From Pseudonocardia lacus (GTDB lineage Bacteria; Actinomycetota; Actinomycetes; Mycobacteriales; Pseudonocardiaceae), in assembly GCF_018531445.1 (NCBI RefSeq), contig NZ_JAHDTH010000003.1, positions 1 to 64,000 of the forward strand: a stretch of DNA of 64,000 nucleotides, read 5' to 3'. The notes below the pieces were generated by a model. That model saw only the letters and a list, made by a program, of their open reading frames with translations, was not told the DNA's origin and searched no databases. This document shows positions 33,767 to 42,210 of this stretch, one piece after another; position 1 is the stretch's first letter; each line of letters starts with the position of its first letter. The translations under genes and the position numbers were made by a program.

Positions 33767-34456
33767 TCAGGTCCCGGCCGCGGCCTTGACCAGGGCGACG
33801 ACGGCCTCCGGCCGGGAGACGTAGACCGCGTGGCTGGCGTCCACCTCGGTGACCGAGGCGCCGGCGCGTTCGGCCATCGAGCGCTGGGCGACCGGCGGGA
33901 TCATCCGGTCCTGCGCGGCGACGAGGTACCAGCTCGGCCTGGCCCGCCAGGCGGGGTCGGTGATGGCTCCACCGACGGCCTCCAGGCCCCAGGGCAGCTG
34001 CGAGTCGGCCAGGAAGCGGGCATCGGCGGCGGGCAGGTCAGCGGCGAACGCGGCAGGGAACCGCTCGCGGTCGAGCAGCAGGAAGCCGTCCACCGGCGGC
34101 AGGATCGGCGGCGCGGGCGAGCCCGGCGGCGGGTCGGCGATCAGGGTGTTGACCGACTCTCCCTTGTCCGGGGCGAAGGCCGCCACGAAGACGAGCGCGG
34201 CCACCTTCTCGTGCGTTCCGGCCTCGCTGATCACCGCGCCGCCGTAGGAGTGCCCCACCAGGACGGTCGGGCCGTCCTGCTGGTCCAGGACCCGCCGGGT
34301 GACCAGCGCGTCGTCGGTGAGCGAGGTGGTGGGGTGCTGGACGATGCTCACCGCGTAGCCCTCGTCGACGAGCCGGTCGTGCACGGCCCGCCATCCCGAG
34401 CCGTCCGCCCACGCCCCGTGGACGAGCACGACGTTGCGGATCGGTGCGTCACTCAT
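33767..34456 (-). CDS. Alpha/beta hydrolase
   Basis: 229 residues. Oxyanion segment VVLVHGAWADGSGW, nucleophile elbow VGHSYGGAVIS, acid residue near VAAQDRMIPP and catalytic His in DASHAVYVSRPEAV. This is the compact salicylate-esterase-like group common in actinobacteria and plants' MES relatives. A small ester or haloperoxidase-like reaction is possible; the substrate is unknown. It is divergent from the large fusion regulator gene. Confidence 0.88.
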   Translation of the reverse strand: MSDAPIRNVVLVHGAWADGSGWRAVHDRLVDEGYAVSIVQHPTTSLTDDALVTRRVLDQQDGPTVLVGHSYGGAVISEAGTHEKVAALVFVAAFAPDKGESVNTLIADPPPGSPAPPILPPVDGFLLLDRERFPAAFAADLPAADARFLADSQLPWGLEAVGGAITDPAWRARPSWYLVAAQDRMIPPVAQRSMAERAGASVTEVDASHAVYVSRPEAVVALVKAAAGT

Positions 34457-34619
34457 TGGTTTCCCTCTCGTCGAACGTTCGGCTCGACCGTGCCAACCCC
34501 GGGCCGGGATCGGAATGCTCGTCGGTCCGGGGAATCCGCGCTCTCCCGCCCGGCGGGACGGCAGAGGAACGGAACTGTCACGTCACCGGAGCTCCAGTGC
34601 CCGCGACGACGATCGGGGC

Positions 34620-37600
34620 GTGCCGCTGCCCGACACCGCCGCCCGCCCGCACCCCGCGGCCGATCCGCTGTCGGAGACGGTGTCGCTCGTGCGGGCCAGG
34701 TGCATCGCTTCCGGGGAGCTGGTCGCGGGGGGCGAGTGGAGCGCGCGACCGCTCGTCGGCGGCCGGCTGGGTGTCGGCGTGGTGGTGCGGGGGCAGTGCT
34801 GGCTCGACCCGGGGACCGGGGAGCCGCCGCGGCTGCTGCCGGAGGGTGCAGTCGTCGTGGCCCGCGGTTCGCGCGCGTTGACCGTGTCGGATCGGCCGGA
34901 TCGACCACCCGTCGCCGCGGTGGGCGATGGCGGGCCCGGCGAAGGCTCGTTCGCGCTGCTCACCGCGGTGTTCGAGGTCGACCGGGCCGAGATGCTGCTG
35001 GCCGCCCTCCCGCCGCTGACGGTCGTCGCCGGTGGCCGCGGACGCGCGGCCGTGGTCGGCGCGCTGGTCGTGGCGGTCGAGCGCGAGCTGGCCGAGCGCG
35101 CGGTCGGAGCCAGCGGCGCCGTGGCGCACTACGCGCAGCTCCTCTTGCTCGAAGCGCTGCGCGCGTGCCTGTCCCGGCCCGACGCCCTGCCCGTGGGGTG
35201 GCTGCGGGTGCTCGCCGACCCCCGGTTGGCGCCCGCCGTCGGTCAGATGCTGGCCGAGCCGGCCCACGGGTGGACGCCCGGAGAGCTGGCCCGCATCGCA
35301 CTGGTGTCGCGGTCGGTGTTCATGCAGCGCTTCCGGGCGCTCGCCGGGACCACGCCCTCGGCATGCCTCGGTCGCATCCGCATGCTCCGCGCCGAAGCCG
35401 CGCTGCGCACCAGCGACGTCCCGGTCGCGCGGCTGGCGCTGGAGACCGGGTACCGCTCCGACAGCGCCTTCAGCGCGGCGTTCAAGCGGACGACCGGTCG
35501 GTCACCCCGGGCCTATCGAGCCGCGTCGCGGGCCGAGCCCGCCGAGTACGATCGCGACGAGCCCGTCCAGGGTCGTGCGAGCGGGCACCCCGGACCGGTC
35601 CCGCTGCGTCCGATCGATCCGAGGAGTGGTGTCGGGGTGGCTGCGCCAGGCCGTCCCGCCCGCGCCGTGCACCCCCTGCGGCTGCAGGTCCTCGGGCCGC
35701 TGCGGATCTGGCGCGACGGCGTCGAGCTGGACCCCGCGCCGCAGCGGCAGGCCCAGGTGCTCGCGCTGCTGCTGGCCCGGGCGGGCCGGCCGATCAGCAC
35801 CAGCGAGCTGCTCGACCTGATCTGGCCGGACGCCGTTCCGCCCACGGCCCTCAACGTGCTGCACAAGCACGTCGGAGCGCTGCGGCGGCTGCTGGAACCC
35901 GCGCTGCCGGCTCGCGGCACCGGCTCCTACCTGCTTCGCCGCGGGCCCGGCTACATGTTCGCGGCCGGGCCCGAGACGCTGGACCTCGTCGACTTCCGGG
36001 AGCTCGTCGAGGCGGCCCGCGCCTGCGCCGCGGTCGACGACCAGGACGCGGCGCTCGAAAGCTACGTCGAGGCGTTGGACCTCTGGCGCGGCCCGGCGGC
36101 CGACGGATCGGCTCGTGGACCGGCCGCCGCGTCGGTACTGGCCACCCTGGACGACGAGTTCTTCGACGCCTGCCTCACGGCGGCCCACGTCGCGGTGCGG
36201 CGCGGCGAGCCCGGACGTGTGTTGCGCCCGCTGCGCCTGGCCGCGTCGATGGCGCCGCTGAACGAGCCCGTGCAGGCCGCCCTGATCACTGCGCTGGGGG
36301 CCGCCGGGCAGCAGGCGGAGGCGCTGTCGGTGTTCCGGGCGGTCCGTGCCCGGCTCGTCGAGGAGCTCGGCGTCGACCCGGGCGCGGTGCTGCGGGCAGC
36401 GCAGCAGCGGGTGCTGACGCAGTCGTCGGTGCCGCTGGTGACCGGCGCGGCCGACGACGGGTCGGCGGGCGCGCGCGGCGCCCTGGTGGGCAGGAGCGAC
36501 GAGCTCACCGCGCTGCGGCACGCCGTGGACTCGGCGCTGGGCCCGACCCCGGACCGCGGTGCGGGGCCGGTCGTCGTCGAGGGGGAGCCGGGAGCGGGGA
36601 AGACCCGGCTGCTGGAGGAGATCGCGCACGAGGCCGCGCGGCGCGGAGCGCTCGTGGTCTGGGGTCGCTGCCTCGACGGCGACGGGACGCCGTCGATGTG
36701 GCCGTGGGTGCAGGCGACCGGCACGATCCTCGACGCCCTCCCGGAAGAAGCGCGGGCGGCTCGGCTCGCCGGTGAACTGCGCCGTCTCGCGGGCCCGGGC
36801 AGCGGTGGGCCCGCCCCGTCGGCCCCGCCGCACGAGGGGACCCGGTTCCGGCTGTTCGAGCAGGTCGCGGCGGTGTTGGACGAGGTCGCGGCGGTGCGGC
36901 CGGTCGTGCTGCTCGTGGACGACCTGCAGTGGGCCGACGTGGCGTCCCTGCGCCTGTTCTCCCACCTGGCGACCCGGCTGCCGGGCAGAACCGTGCTCGT
37001 CGGTGCCGTGCGGGACCGTGCGCCGACCCCCGACGCGGAGCTCACCCGCACCCTCGCCGCGGCGAGCCGGGCGCCCGGCCACCGCCGGATCCGACTCGGC
37101 CCGCTGACCCCGGTCGAGGTCGCCGGGCTCGTGCAGCGCACCACCGGCCAGGACCCCGACCCCGCCGCCGTGCGGCACATCCACGCCCGCACCGCGGGCA
37201 ACCCCTTCTTCGTGCGGGAGCTGTCCCGGTTCCTCGCCGACGGCGGCGCGCTCACCGAGGACGCCGTGGCCCGGGCCGGCGTGCCGGCCAGCGTGCGGGA
37301 CGTCGTCCGCGACCGCATGGCCGGTCTCGACGACCGGGCCCGCGACCTGCTCGAAGTCGCCGCGATCCTCGGCCGCGACGTCGATCTGCGCCTGCTCGCC
37401 GCCGCCGCCGACCTCGACGTCCAGACCTGCCTCGACCGGTTCGAGCCGGTGGAGGCGCTCGGTCTGCTCGCCCTCGACCCCGCCGACCCGTACCGCGTCC
37501 GCTTCACGCACGACCTGGTCCGCGAAGCGGTCGTCGACACCACGCCGCCGCGCCGGGCCCCGCGTCTGCACCTGCGGGTCGCCGACGCCCTGGACCGCGC

Positions 37601-38834
37601 CGCACCGGACGTCGGGTCCGTCGCCGAGCGCCTCGCCCACCACCTGTGGACCGCCGGGCCGCTGGCCGACCCGGCCCGGACCGCGGACGCGCTGATACGC
37701 GCGGCCCGCGGCGCGGGGGCCAGGTCCGCGCTGGAGGCCGCCGAGCGGCGGCTGCGGTCGGCGGCGCGGCTGGCCAGGGCGGCCGGTCGCGCGGAGCTGG
37801 AGCTGTCCGCGCTGTCCCAGCTGATCGCGGTCGTCGGGATGCGTTCGGGGTATCACGGCGCGGCCCTCGACGTACTCGAACGCGCCGAGGACCTGGCTCG
37901 CGGCCTCGGCCGGGAACGGGACGCTACCGAGTTCCTCTTCTCCCGGCGGGCCGCGCACTCCCAGGCCGTGCGACTCGACCGCAGCGGCCCGCTGGCCCGC
38001 CGGCTGCTCGAGCAGGGGGAGGCGTCGGCCGATCCGGTCGTGCGCGCCTACGGCCTCTACTCCTGGGGCATCCACCAGTGGGACCTGGGCGACATCGGGG
38101 CCGCCCACCGCTACCTCAGCCGCCTGGACCGGGCCGCGCTGGACGACCTCGCCGGGCGGGAGGACCAGCCACTGCGCTACGACCTGCGGCTGATGGCGGC
38201 CGGCATGCTCGCCGAGACGACCGCGCTGCACGGCGACGTCGACGCCGCCCGCGCTCTGCTGGACGGGCTGGAGGTCGCGGTCGGCGCCGAACCGTACGCC
38301 GTCACCGTCTGGGCCGGGTTCACCGCGCGGATCGCCGCCATGGTGGGTGACCCGGCCTGGGCGCTGCGCGGCGCGGAGCGCGGGATCGCGCAGGACCCCG
38401 GGTTCTCGTTCACCTTCTTCGGCGCCTACCTGCGGCTGGCCCGGTACTGGGCGCGCGCCACGACCGGCACCGACCCCGCCGGTGCCGCGGCCGCCGCCGA
38501 CGCCGTCATCACCGCGACGCTGCTCGACCCGCCCCGCTCGAACGTGCCCACCTGGTACGCACTGCTCAGCGAGATGTGGTCGGCGGCGGGCGAGCTCGAC
38601 GAGGCCGCCACCGCCCTCGACCGGGCCGAGCGGTTCCTGGACGCCCACGGCCAGCGCCACGGCGAAGGCCTGATCCTCCTGCAGCGGGCTCGGCTGCGGC
38701 ACGCCCGCGGTGAGCCGGTCGCCGTCGTCCGGGCCGCCGCCGAGCGGGCCCGGGCGTTGTCGGTCGACCGTGGGGCCCACCTGTTCGCCGGTCGTGCGGA
38801 GCGGTTCCTCGCCGAGCTCCACGATCCGGCCTGA
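34620..38834 (+). CDS. AraC-SARP-ATPase-TPR fusion regulator
   Basis: About 1404 residues from a GTG at 34620; the ATG at 34515 is an alternative. Order: AraC cupin-like sensor (residues about 20-200), AraC HTH at 35260-35520 (SVFMQRFRALAGTTPSACL, LALETGYRSDSAFSAAFKRTTGRSPRAYR), then without any stop a SARP winged helix (35680-35950, LQVLGPLRIWRDGVELDPAP), BTAD (35980-36400), AAA-type ATPase with Walker A GEPGAGKTR near 36590 and Walker B VVLLVDDLQWAD, and TPR helices to the end. AraC and SARP regulators are normally separate genes. A GTG near 35638 would start a normal SARP-LAL protein, so a separate second product is possible. Target genes are unknown. Confidence 0.82.
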   Translation: MPLPDTAARPHPAADPLSETVSLVRARCIASGELVAGGEWSARPLVGGRLGVGVVVRGQCWLDPGTGEPPRLLPEGAVVVARGSRALTVSDRPDRPPVAAVGDGGPGEGSFALLTAVFEVDRAEMLLAALPPLTVVAGGRGRAAVVGALVVAVERELAERAVGASGAVAHYAQLLLLEALRACLSRPDALPVGWLRVLADPRLAPAVGQMLAEPAHGWTPGELARIALVSRSVFMQRFRALAGTTPSACLGRIRMLRAEAALRTSDVPVARLALETGYRSDSAFSAAFKRTTGRSPRAYRAASRAEPAEYDRDEPVQGRASGHPGPVPLRPIDPRSGVGVAAPGRPARAVHPLRLQVLGPLRIWRDGVELDPAPQRQAQVLALLLARAGRPISTSELLDLIWPDAVPPTALNVLHKHVGALRRLLEPALPARGTGSYLLRRGPGYMFAAGPETLDLVDFRELVEAARACAAVDDQDAALESYVEALDLWRGPAADGSARGPAAASVLATLDDEFFDACLTAAHVAVRRGEPGRVLRPLRLAASMAPLNEPVQAALITALGAAGQQAEALSVFRAVRARLVEELGVDPGAVLRAAQQRVLTQSSVPLVTGAADDGSAGARGALVGRSDELTALRHAVDSALGPTPDRGAGPVVVEGEPGAGKTRLLEEIAHEAARRGALVVWGRCLDGDGTPSMWPWVQATGTILDALPEEARAARLAGELRRLAGPGSGGPAPSAPPHEGTRFRLFEQVAAVLDEVAAVRPVVLLVDDLQWADVASLRLFSHLATRLPGRTVLVGAVRDRAPTPDAELTRTLAAASRAPGHRRIRLGPLTPVEVAGLVQRTTGQDPDPAAVRHIHARTAGNPFFVRELSRFLADGGALTEDAVARAGVPASVRDVVRDRMAGLDDRARDLLEVAAILGRDVDLRLLAAAADLDVQTCLDRFEPVEALGLLALDPADPYRVRFTHDLVREAVVDTTPPRRAPRLHLRVADALDRAAPDVGSVAERLAHHLWTAGPLADPARTADALIRAARGAGARSALEAAERRLRSAARLARAAGRAELELSALSQLIAVVGMRSGYHGAALDVLERAEDLARGLGRERDATEFLFSRRAAHSQAVRLDRSGPLARRLLEQGEASADPVVRAYGLYSWGIHQWDLGDIGAAHRYLSRLDRAALDDLAGREDQPLRYDLRLMAAGMLAETTALHGDVDAARALLDGLEVAVGAEPYAVTVWAGFTARIAAMVGDPAWALRGAERGIAQDPGFSFTFFGAYLRLARYWARATTGTDPAGAAAAADAVITATLLDPPRSNVPTWYALLSEMWSAAGELDEAATALDRAERFLDAHGQRHGEGLILLQRARLRHARGEPVAVVRAAAERARALSVDRGAHLFAGRAERFLAELHDPA

Positions 38835-39790: not shown

Positions 39791-40033
39791 ATGCCGGCAC
39801 CGGCGCGATCGACAGCGTCGTCCCAGACAGCAGCGTTGTTCCAGCCGGCGACGAGAGACGTCGCCGAGTGCCTGCGCGAGGAGTTCGCCGGCGTACCCCG
39901 GGCGGTGCTCGAGGCCGAGATCGGCGACGCCGAGCGGGAGCTCGACGGGCAGGTGCCCGCCGGCTCGATGGCGGAGCTGCTGCACCGGTTGGTCGCCTGC
40001 CGCTTGCGGCAGAGGTCGCAGGGAAGCGGGTGA
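39791..40033 (+). CDS. Small helical protein (80 aa) heading the two-component operon
   Basis: ATG at 39791 with GGGAAGGGGAG upstream. The stop overlaps the regulator's ATG (TGATG), so the gene is co-translated. The C-terminal ~55 residues are three predicted helices: TRDVAECLREEFAG, PRAVLEAEIGDAERELDG and SMAELLHRLVACRLRQ. This resembles a three-helix-bundle dimerisation domain I know from small actinobacterial proteins. A role in modulating the regulator or kinase is a guess from its position. Confidence 0.7.
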   Translation: MPAPARSTASSQTAALFQPATRDVAECLREEFAGVPRAVLEAEIGDAERELDGQVPAGSMAELLHRLVACRLRQRSQGSG

Positions 40034-40770
40034 TGGGTGTGCAGCGCGTCGAGGATCCGGCCGCGGAGCGCAGGATGGGCCCGGTGGACGCACGGTTGCT
40101 GATGGTCGAGGACGACGAGCGGATCAGGCTGGCGCTCGGGCTGGCCCTGGCCGACGAGGGCTGCGAGGTGCTGGAGGCCGAGTCGGGGGAGCGCGCCCTG
40201 GAACTGCTCGCGACGGCGTCGGTCGACGTCGTGCTGCTCGACCTGATGCTGCCGGGCATGGACGGCCTCGACGTGTGCCGCACGCTGCGCGCCCGGGGCG
40301 ACCAGCCGATCATCATCGTGTCCGCGCGCACCGACACCTCCGACGTGATCGCGGGGCTGGAGGCCGGGGCCGACGACTACGTCACCAAGCCCCTCGTGGC
40401 CAGCGAGCTGGCCGCCCGGGTGCGGGCCCTGCTGCGCAGGCGCCACCCGGACGGCGGCAGCCCGCGCGCGCTGCGGCTGGGGGACGTGGAGATCCTGCCC
40501 GACGAGGAGGTGGTGCGCCGGGGCGGTGCCGAGGTGCACCTGACGCGCACCGAGTTCGGGCTGCTGCTCGAACTCGCCCAGGCGCGGGGGGCGGTGGTCT
40601 CCCGGGAGGACCTGCTGCGCCGCGTGTGGGGCTACGACTACTTCGGCGACACCCGGCTGCTGGACGTGCACGTGCGCCGGTTGCGCCGCAAGGTCGAGCG
40701 CGACCCCGACCAGCCGGAGCGTGTGCTGACGGTGCGGGGCCGCGGGTACAAAGCGGTCGGTGTCGAGTAG
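40033..40770 (+). CDS. Response regulator, OmpR/PhoB family
   Basis: 245 residues. The receiver has the acidic pair VEDDE, phospho-acceptor Asp70 (VVLLDLMLPGMDG), Ser in VSARTD and Lys in YVTKPL. The winged-helix output domain is complete: VHLTRTEFGLLLELAQARG, DLLRRVWGYDYFGDTRLLDVHVRRLRRKVE and VLTVRGRGYKAV. It pairs with the downstream kinase. It is a likely ligand for the CTGACGA boxes at 39136, 42520 and 43034. Its stop codon sits inside a 12-bp tandem repeat. Confidence 0.95.
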   Translation: MGVQRVEDPAAERRMGPVDARLLMVEDDERIRLALGLALADEGCEVLEAESGERALELLATASVDVVLLDLMLPGMDGLDVCRTLRARGDQPIIIVSARTDTSDVIAGLEAGADDYVTKPLVASELAARVRALLRRRHPDGGSPRALRLGDVEILPDEEVVRRGGAEVHLTRTEFGLLLELAQARGAVVSREDLLRRVWGYDYFGDTRLLDVHVRRLRRKVERDPDQPERVLTVRGRGYKAVGVE

Positions 40771-40809
40771 GCAGTCGAGTAGGCAGTCGAGTAGGCAGTC
40801 GAGTAGGCA
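40762..40809 (+). repeat. Four 12-bp tandem repeats spanning the regulator stop codon
   Basis: GTCGAGTAGGCA is repeated perfectly at 40762, 40774, 40786 and 40798. The first copy contains the regulator's last codons and its stop (GTC GAG TAG). Since the unit is 12 bp, every copy would supply a new in-frame stop, so copy-number change leaves the protein intact but alters the 33-bp spacing to the kinase start. Confidence 0.9.
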
Positions 40810-40842
40810 GCGGTCGCGTCGGGCCGACCGACCGGGTAGGAC

Positions 40843-42210
40843 GTGCGCATGGTGCGGTTGTCGCTGCGCTGGCGGGTGGCGCTCGCCCTCGGCCTGGGCA
40901 CGGTCGTGCTCGCCGGCGTGCTGGCCGTGGTCACCTGGAACCTGGCGTCGGGGTACATGCTGCGCCAGCGCGAGACCAGCGCGATCCGCCAGGCCGAGGT
41001 GAACGTCCAGCTGGTCGACGCCTCCCTGCGGACCGGTTCGGAGGGCCTCGGCGACCTGCTCAGCGGCCTCACCAGCAGCTCCGATGCCACGATCCTCATC
41101 GAGCGCCCCAGCGGCTGGCTGACCAGCGGCCGCCAGGTCGACGCCGACGTGCTGCCCCCGGCACTGCTGCGGATGGCCACCGACGGCGTCCCCGCCCACC
41201 AGCGGCTGAACGCGCAGGGCATCCCCGTGCTCGCCGTCACGCTGCCGGTCGACGGTGGCGAGAGCGCGTACGTCGAGCTGTTCCCGCTCACCCAGCTCGA
41301 CCAGGCCTTCCGGTTCCTGAGCACGGTGCTCGCGATCGGCGTCGCGGCGAGCGGGCTGCTCGGGCTCGGGCTCGGCCACTGGGCGGGGCGGCGCGCCCTG
41401 CGCCCGCTCACCGAGCTGACGCAGGCGGCGGCCCGGGTGGTCGGCGGGGACCTGCGTGCCCGGCTGCCCGATCGGGACGACCCCGACCTCGCCTCGCTGG
41501 CCGCGACCTTCAACCGCACCGCGGACGCGCTCGAGAAGCGGGTGCGGCGCGACGCCCGGTTCGCCGGCGACGTGAGCCACGAGCTGCGGTCGCCGCTGAC
41601 GACGATGGCCAACGCCGGGGCGGTCCTGCGCCGGCGGCGCGACGAGCTGACCGGTACCGCCGGCCGGGCGCTGGACCTGCTGCTCGGCGAGATCGGCCGC
41701 TTCCAGCGCATGGTGGTGGACCTGCTGGAGATCTCCCGGGACGACCTGCGCCCCGACGAGGTTCCCGACGAGGTCGTCGACCTGGGCGACGTCGTGCGCC
41801 ACGTGGTCGCCGTGCGACCCGGGAAGCCGCCGGAGGTCGACCTGGTGGCCCAGCCGCCGCTGGTGCTGGCCGACCGCCGCCGACTGGACCGCACCGTGGC
41901 CAACCTGCTCGACAACGCGGACAAGTACGCGGGCGGTGCGGTGCGGGTGGCGGTGCTGCGCCACGGCGGGCGCGCGCGGTTGGAGGTCGACGACAGCGGT
42001 CCGGGCGTGCCCGACGACCAGCGCGAGCAGATCTTCGAGCGGTTCGCCCGCGGCCCCTACGCCGGGCGCCGCGGCGTGGATGGCGGCAGCGGCCTCGGGC
42101 TGGCGCTGGTGGCGCAGGACGTGCGCTGGCACGGCGGCGCGGTCCGGGTCGAGGACCGGCCCGGTGGCGGCGCCCGGTTCGTCGTCGAACTGCCGGAGGT
42201 GCACCGGTGA
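40843..42210 (+). CDS. Sensor histidine kinase, HisKA/HAMP type
   Basis: 455 residues from a GTG at 40843 (ATG at 40849 equally possible). Membrane helices at about residues 12-34 and 155-180 frame a ~120-residue extracytoplasmic sensor. HAMP follows (RRALRPLTELTQAAARVVGGDL), then the phosphoacceptor FAGDVSHELRSPL with His246, N-box NLLDNADKYAGG, G1 VDDSGPGVPDD, F-box RFARGPYAG and G2 GSGLGLAL. It phosphorylates the upstream regulator. The signal is unknown, though EctA and a BCCT carrier nearby make osmotic stress a fair guess. Its stop overlaps the lipoprotein start. Confidence 0.93.
   Translation: MRMVRLSLRWRVALALGLGTVVLAGVLAVVTWNLASGYMLRQRETSAIRQAEVNVQLVDASLRTGSEGLGDLLSGLTSSSDATILIERPSGWLTSGRQVDADVLPPALLRMATDGVPAHQRLNAQGIPVLAVTLPVDGGESAYVELFPLTQLDQAFRFLSTVLAIGVAASGLLGLGLGHWAGRRALRPLTELTQAAARVVGGDLRARLPDRDDPDLASLAATFNRTADALEKRVRRDARFAGDVSHELRSPLTTMANAGAVLRRRRDELTGTAGRALDLLLGEIGRFQRMVVDLLEISRDDLRPDEVPDEVVDLGDVVRHVVAVRPGKPPEVDLVAQPPLVLADRRRLDRTVANLLDNADKYAGGAVRVAVLRHGGRARLEVDDSGPGVPDDQREQIFERFARGPYAGRRGVDGGSGLGLALVAQDVRWHGGAVRVEDRPGGGARFVVELPEVHR

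Follow-up and report, generated by a model that had tools for sequence, protein, structure and literature searches.

A cupin/AraC regulator gene read in frame into a large SARP regulator gene in Pseudonocardia lacus: a probable young, genome-specific fusion

A single open reading frame of Pseudonocardia lacus joins a complete cupin/AraC-type regulator to a complete large SARP regulator with an ATPase part. It lies in positions 1 to 64,000 of contig NZ_JAHDTH010000003.1 (assembly GCF_018531445.1), the 64,000-nucleotide stretch analyzed here, which we call the window. The explanation that we consider fairly probable is a real and young fusion specific to this genome, with the tethered regulator as its probable main product and the ancestral SARP made in addition from a GTG codon at 35637.

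The frame is free of stops from a TTG codon at 34434 to the stop codon at 38832–38834, a length of 1466 codons. Five Pfam domains are found in the chain, all scoring above their gathering scores: Cupin_6 at residues 77–246 (E = 3.4e-22, profile positions 1–182 of 183), the helix-turn-helix (HTH) domain HTH_18 at 285–363 (E = 1.8e-17, positions 1–79 of 80), the winged-helix domain Trans_reg_C at 437–509 (E = 1.4e-07), BTAD at 516–661 (E = 9.8e-30, positions 1–146 of 146) and AAA_16 at 684–855 (E = 5.3e-27). The open frame and the Pfam matches bear out an initial annotation that had read two different DNA-binding domains (AraC HTH and SARP winged HTH), a sensor, which is of the cupin type, and an ATPase in one in-frame chain. 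The P-loop GEPGAGKT and VVLLVDDLQWAD can be read in the translation of the ATPase part. Of the SARP parts named in that annotation, the winged helix, BTAD and the ATPase are present, while the TPR part was inferred from the family; Pfam gives no TPR match in the chain at E ≤ 0.01 and reports no LuxR-type HTH. Among NCBIfam models, TIGR03903 (TOMM kinase/cyclase) aligns to residues 807–1457 with a score below its cut-off, the RclR-type AraC model NF040475 covers residues 106–365 and scores 77.9 bits (cut-off 400), and the AfsR model NF053617 is limited to residues 410–665 and scores 110.5 bits (cut-off 1430). The G+C content at third codon positions (GC3) is 0.66 over codons 1–62, 0.91 over codons 63–369 and 0.94 beyond codon 414, and the codon-position profile indicates coding from about 34620. 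Chance does not account for two complete domain sets sharing one frame.

The joint between the two parts stands out by its composition. In the linker of residues 370–401, presumably the former spacer between two genes, 24 of the 32 codons end in G or C (binomial P = 0.0013 against 0.93; flanks 0.91–0.94), and the 45-codon stretch of residues 370–414, with a GC3 of 0.76, lies below all 1269 overlapping 45-codon segments in both coding parts (minimum 0.80). The low GC3 suggests a spacer that has come to be translated recently. That the linker is open is unsurprising by chance, as shuffling of its bases left the 32 codons stop-free in 56% of trials; two genes have the same frame by chance in one case out of three, and a single lost stop thus suffices if both genes share a frame. 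In all 61 AraC relatives first compared, collected by genus, family and class searches (31–48% identity, the 48% over 154 residues only), the gene stops after the equivalent of residue 365, at a median of 9 and a maximum of 49 codons. The same holds for 39 of 40 further AraC matches chosen for their long open frames (two of the 40 repeat members of the 61), which end normally. Two apparent AraC read-throughs, of 97 codons in locus L204 and 68 codons in L236, were rejected; the alignments had crossed a stop and both genes end normally.

The fusion is absent from the relatives examined. Profile searches of six-frame translations of 241 loci found a SARP profile in 118 and an AraC profile in 112, and the two occur in one frame only in six copies of the window (L001, L009, L029, L060, L105 and L135). 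Apart from these copies, both domain types lie in one locus in L010/L201 (the same place), L160, L161 and L190. The first of these places belongs to an AraC relative (G036) in which a SARP detected by profile, 31% identical, lies 1.2 kb beyond the AraC gene with a convergent gene between them; in the other three, the AraC profile matches are weak (27–37 bits) and have the opposite orientation to the SARP. Within 1.5 kb of the 61 AraC relatives, tblastn found no SARP at E ≤ 1e-5. On the SARP side, 16 large loci (L059 from Actinomadura sp. DC4 and L090–L104) hold 19 orthologues or paralogues with 53–67% identity, which align through the C-terminal half of the chain; three weaker SARPs (29–33%) in L090–L092 were left out of the 19, among which the second gene of L092 is split over two frames, the L098 alignment is in two pieces and that of L103 covers 668 aa only. 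No AraC homologue was found by tblastn in these 16 loci of 12.7–19 kb at E ≤ 1e-8, nor at E ≤ 1e-4 in 38 SARP loci that include some 1.5 kb of upstream DNA (13 of these genes are already among those above; L160 and L161 belong to this set). Long frames upstream of SARP orthologues, such as one of 344 codons in G188, were considered as possible fusions; in L091 that frame overlaps an SBF-family transporter gene in another frame and is therefore no fusion. Large-SARP paralogues are closely paired in L092 (G076), L095 (G457) and L096 (G492), and G361 has three large-SARP copies (L093, L094 and L104).

A conserved AraC–SARP family likewise finds no member among the matches listed in searches of the genus (62 genomes), the family (overlapping samples of 200 and 297), the class (246) and the family of G361 (35); these sample searches scored part of the candidates in each genome, so that distant fusions could escape them. 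In plasmids, the query protein has matches in 884 records, none of which covers 80% of it, and the only match by DNA is 57 bases long. We did not find an AraC–SARP fusion in the open-licence literature searched, and the main text of a review of SARP architectures (PMC10972967) has no mention of AraC. The initial annotation had proposed looking for the same architecture elsewhere, which thus turned up nothing but copies of the window, and had pointed to separate genes in relatives as a sign of an error or a strain-specific fusion. Relatives do largely carry the parts separately, as a rule not as neighbours, which argues for a genome-specific fusion and not for a family of combined regulators. 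The unusual combined regulator of that annotation is therefore present as a chain, in no established family, and is specific to this genome or, less likely, due to a base error.

The two halves also differ in their nearest relatives. Full-length AraC relatives reach about 41–44% identity. The SARP half is 66% identical over 1044 aa to that of Actinomadura sp. DC4, which was also the sole relative, for the SARP half, in a scan of genome contigs. Among the matches listed, the best for the SARP half in the 61 other genomes of the genus is about 43% identical, and matches in the family and class samples reach 66–70%. With no close relative listed for the genus and up to 70% identity in other families, the SARP gene was probably acquired by this genome.

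The absence of a second example raises the question of an artefact, in which ordinary adjacent araC and SARP genes appear joined by a miscalled stop. The initial annotation had advised checking for a sequencing error near 35560–35640. Near the joint the other forward frames offer no stop, one being stop-free over 35017–35818 and the other until 36773, and the flanking domains are complete, which disfavours a one-base insertion or deletion; a substitution error, unlike an indel, could hide the araC stop, and we retain it as a rival. Substitution errors are rare in polished assemblies. The lack of the fusion in every other fetched locus, the low GC3 of the linker and the intact start signals of the SARP at 35637 are what such an artefact would leave, and an AraC read-through in another genome (L202, below) also speaks for it; we nevertheless judge it distinctly unlikely. 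Several further points weigh against the fusion as we read it. The source is a single draft assembly of 501 contigs, which would also suit an artefact, and the fusion is known from the DNA sequence alone; with one genome there is no sign of selection for it. AraC joins can moreover arise by accident, as is seen in a different genome at L202 (G484:C16:411000-417000, minus strand 5475–3181), where a Cupin_6/HTH_18 gene runs in frame for 460 codons past its AraC part into an unrelated Na_Ca_ex membrane-protein gene. In L202, the usual AraC ending and its stop are found in a neighbouring frame, as if the frame had slipped; in contrast, the window has the usual AraC ending in frame and the stop is missing. 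The Shine–Dalgarno-like match (SD-like match) before the likely start GTG 34620 is weak, at 2 nt. The AlphaFold2 model of residues 63–671 is poor and gives no structural support for cooperation between the halves: its mean pLDDT (per-residue confidence) is 58, the AraC half is largely below 60 and no secondary structure is predicted over the linker (model residues 305–363). Confidence in the linker is low as well, which, with most of the AraC half equally low, is not specific to the linker; an unstructured linker would fit two independent halves, but the model is too poor to weigh.

The start signals of the SARP part deserve separate consideration. The initial annotation had placed a possible start of a shorter, SARP-only product near 35638. 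The codon is GTG 35637, in frame at residue 402, with AGGAG 10 nt upstream, and is a plausible start of that kind. SD-like matches of at least 5 nt precede 6 of the 110 start codons in all three frames of the open reading frame, so that the AGGAG is suggestive only. The GTG lies 39 nt before the conserved SARP part, within the range of 15–63 nt for the nearest in-frame starts of the 19 orthologues. Since SARP queries at the orthologue loci were cut at residue 414, the onset of SARP homology was tested with the full chain, whose alignments to four close SARP orthologues start at residue 415–416. These signals are also what one would expect if the araC part were a mere passenger, with the full chain hardly made or non-functional and a SARP-LAL regulator from GTG 35637 as the working product. 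The weak match at the AraC start, the L202 read-through without evident function, and the better conservation of the SARP half compared with full-length AraC relatives all fit this alternative. It is at odds with the full-length cupin and HTH domains, their strong coding signature and the lack of any sign of decay, and with the fact that any translation of araC must yield the fusion; on this evidence we regard it as rather unlikely, though not as negligible.

Returning to a fusion with both products, we envisage the following course. A standalone cupin/AraC gene would have been placed immediately before a gene of the SARP-LAL type in the same frame, and recent loss of the araC stop would have joined the two. 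Without a stop of its own for araC, ribosomes translating it must continue across the former spacer of about 32 codons and enter the SARP. The AraC HTH would hold the chain at the operator of araC, which probably lies in the 163 bp between the fusion and a divergent hydrolase gene, and the SARP winged HTH and BTAD may contact RNA polymerase, gated by the ATP-controlled C-terminal half, by analogy with AfsR, for which relief by ATP of inhibition by the C-terminal domains is described (PMC10936776). The preserved GTG 35637 and its ribosome-binding site would still yield the ancestral SARP alone. The SARP would now also be made from the araC promoter, and would gain a second DNA address.

Each half can be compared with known regulators. 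By description (PMC10972967), the SARP part of about 1050 aa resembles SARP-LAL regulators such as PimR, SanG, FilR and PteR, in which the SARP module is N-terminal, whereas in the window it follows a whole cupin/AraC regulator and a linker. The subgroup is further marked by a C-terminal half with an AAA ATPase and a LAL/guanylate-cyclase-like character that lacks a LuxR HTH; the chain has AAA_16 and no reported LuxR HTH, and its cyclase-type match, TIGR03903, stays below the cut-off. A winged HTH (PF00486) followed by BTAD (PF03704), the mark of a SARP, is present; the module starts at residue ~415 of the full chain and would be N-terminal only in the putative GTG 35637 product. The SARP module (residues 404–661) aligns to the structures 8hvr, 8jke and 8k60 of AfsR, a large SARP of Streptomyces coelicolor with NOD and TPR parts, but the chain is not a member of the AfsR equivalog NF053617 and has the additional AraC half. 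With RclR-like AraC regulators it shares a complete Cupin_6 followed by HTH_18, and it has the AraC-type HTH (PF12833/PF00165) of AraC/XylS regulators. In its Cupin_6-containing AraC relatives this HTH stands at the C-terminal end, whereas here it is internal. As a rule, the cupin domains of AraC-type regulators sense small ligands and form dimers.

The initial annotation had suggested a role in secondary metabolism, for which we find no support; the neighbourhood points instead to the alpha/beta hydrolase gene divergent to the fusion. Hydrolases 40–44% identical to that of the window are found in 9 of the 16 large SARP loci, and two further SARP loci have them as well (L180, 43%; L181, in two pieces). 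At a threshold of 120 bits the hydrolase has 25 matches in the 12 source genomes without the window's own, of which 12 fall inside the 15 SARP loci (9 of the 15 loci, 8 of the 12 genomes) compared with 0.057 expected. The Poisson probability of this linkage is 2e-24, a value that ignores the kinship of the genomes and duplicated loci. In L099 (G442) the hydrolase and the SARP stand head to head as in the window, without araC. Given this association in the SARP lineage, the window hydrolase is the likeliest target of the fusion. Several SARP-linked hydrolases have N-termini that look Tat-like by eye. The three neighbour genes tested in L090, L091 and L093 are SBF-family transporters by Pfam. 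A palindrome, CGAACGTTCG, lies at 34472–34481 just upstream of the hydrolase start and is a candidate operator.

How the three genes came together may be read in two ways. The hydrolase tree does not group the window hydrolase with most of the SARP-linked ones: the row nearest to it is not linked to a SARP, and the supported clade of four to which it belongs has one SARP-linked member. Of nine hydrolase places, seven are without a SARP, L184 is linked, and L190, in the window's own genome, has a 38% identical SARP 6.5 kb away; tblastn found no AraC gene at any of the nine. A hydrolase match is near 3 of the 61 AraC relatives, and in L018 and L020, from the same genus, a hydrolase is immediately divergent to AraC (38% identity over 76 aa and 32% over 224 aa). 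Both orders of events are thus possible: araC may have entered a hydrolase–SARP pair, or the SARP may have landed behind an araC–hydrolase pair.

The promoters of the linked hydrolases share short words. Of 12 hydrolase genes at the SARP orthologue loci, 11 have CGTCAA or TTGACG in their upstream regions, with 18 occurrences in 4.2 kb of hydrolase promoters compared to 0.45 per kb in these loci and 2 in 6.3 kb upstream of the SARPs (two hydrolases come from each of L095, L096 and L098, and for several hydrolases the end of the match served as an estimate of the start). Seven of the promoters have both words, spaced 51–102 bp apart in six and 234 bp in one. The words were found and counted in the same promoters, so that their enrichment is descriptive and serves as a lead only; they are candidate SARP sites. 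Neither word is found in the window between 33000 and 39500, the 163-bp region included, or in the stretch used of L099, the sole clean head-to-head locus. A scan for direct repeats as possible SARP boxes gives 2 upstream of the window hydrolase, no excess over the 2.3 in mononucleotide shuffles. Such repeats exceed the shuffles in L093 (7 versus 1.5), in L090 and L095b (5 versus 1.3 in each) and in L100 (4 versus 1.6), and none is found in L095a and L098a.

These observations lead us to a more specific speculation, which we consider unlikely, that the loss of the stop created a factor with two addresses: the AraC half would sit at the hydrolase operator, the cupin would read a ligand and the SARP–STAND half would provide an ATP-gated polymerase contact in place of the putative SARP site in the hydrolase promoters of the sister loci, with GTG 35637 keeping the old SARP activity. 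Going further, one could propose a selected, integrated two-input regulator in which ligand sensing by the cupin controls the STAND/SARP output in cis, as an established novel architecture. Every domain is intact in one chain, the divergent hydrolase gene is of the kind to which the SARP lineage is linked, and the absence here of the sister promoter words is compatible with an AraC half that has taken over promoter recognition. However, with no second example in the 241 loci or among the matches listed for genus, family and class, and with a linker whose composition is so far unadapted, we regard such an architecture as highly improbable. Further downstream in the window, a perfect tandem repeat (40762–40810, 4.1 copies of a 12-bp unit) lies where a response regulator gene (39940–40770, Pfam) ends, before its histidine kinase gene (40843–42210).

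Table 1. Features of the window, and loci with linked hydrolases or promoter words
Feature	Position or loci	Strand	Basis or remark
Alpha/beta hydrolase (Abhydrolase_6)	33767..34456	-	E 1.6e-27; divergent to fusion, likeliest local target
Divergent intergenic region, presumed operator/promoter for hydrolase and fusion	34457..34619	.	163 bp, GC 0.70
Fused open reading frame	34620..38834	+	Likely start GTG 34620 (unproven start); coding-type GC3 from ~34620
Cupin_6, putative ligand-sensing part of AraC half	34662..35171	+	Pfam
HTH_18, AraC-type DNA-binding domain	35286..35522	+	Pfam; phmmer match to AdpA 3w6v
Presumed former spacer, now linker (residues 370-401)	35541..35636	+	Low GC3
AGGAG (35622-35626) and GTG 35637	35622..35639	+	Likely ancestral SARP start, possible internal start now
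Trans_reg_C, SARP winged helix	35742..35960	+	Pfam; match to AfsR structures 8hvr/8jke/8k60
BTAD	35979..36416	+	Pfam
AAA_16 / STAND-type ATPase	36483..36998	+	Pfam; motifs in translation
C-terminal half, probably of the SARP-LAL kind; presumed sensor with helical repeats	36999..38831	+	TIGR03903 below cut-off; orthologues align throughout
SARP loci with hydrolase	L090, L091, L093, L095, L096, L098, L099, L100, L103
Loci with promoter words	L090, L091, L093, L095, L096, L098, L100, L103		Upstream of hydrolases

If confirmed, the fusion would be a snapshot of the birth of a multi-domain regulator, in which one lost stop joins two unrelated transcription factors while the former spacer can still be discerned and the old start persists. 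It would permit a test of whether such fusions rewire regulation immediately or are carried along as passengers. From the strong linkage of this lineage of large SARPs to hydrolase genes, and from the words that the hydrolase promoters share, come a testable target and a candidate binding site for these regulators.

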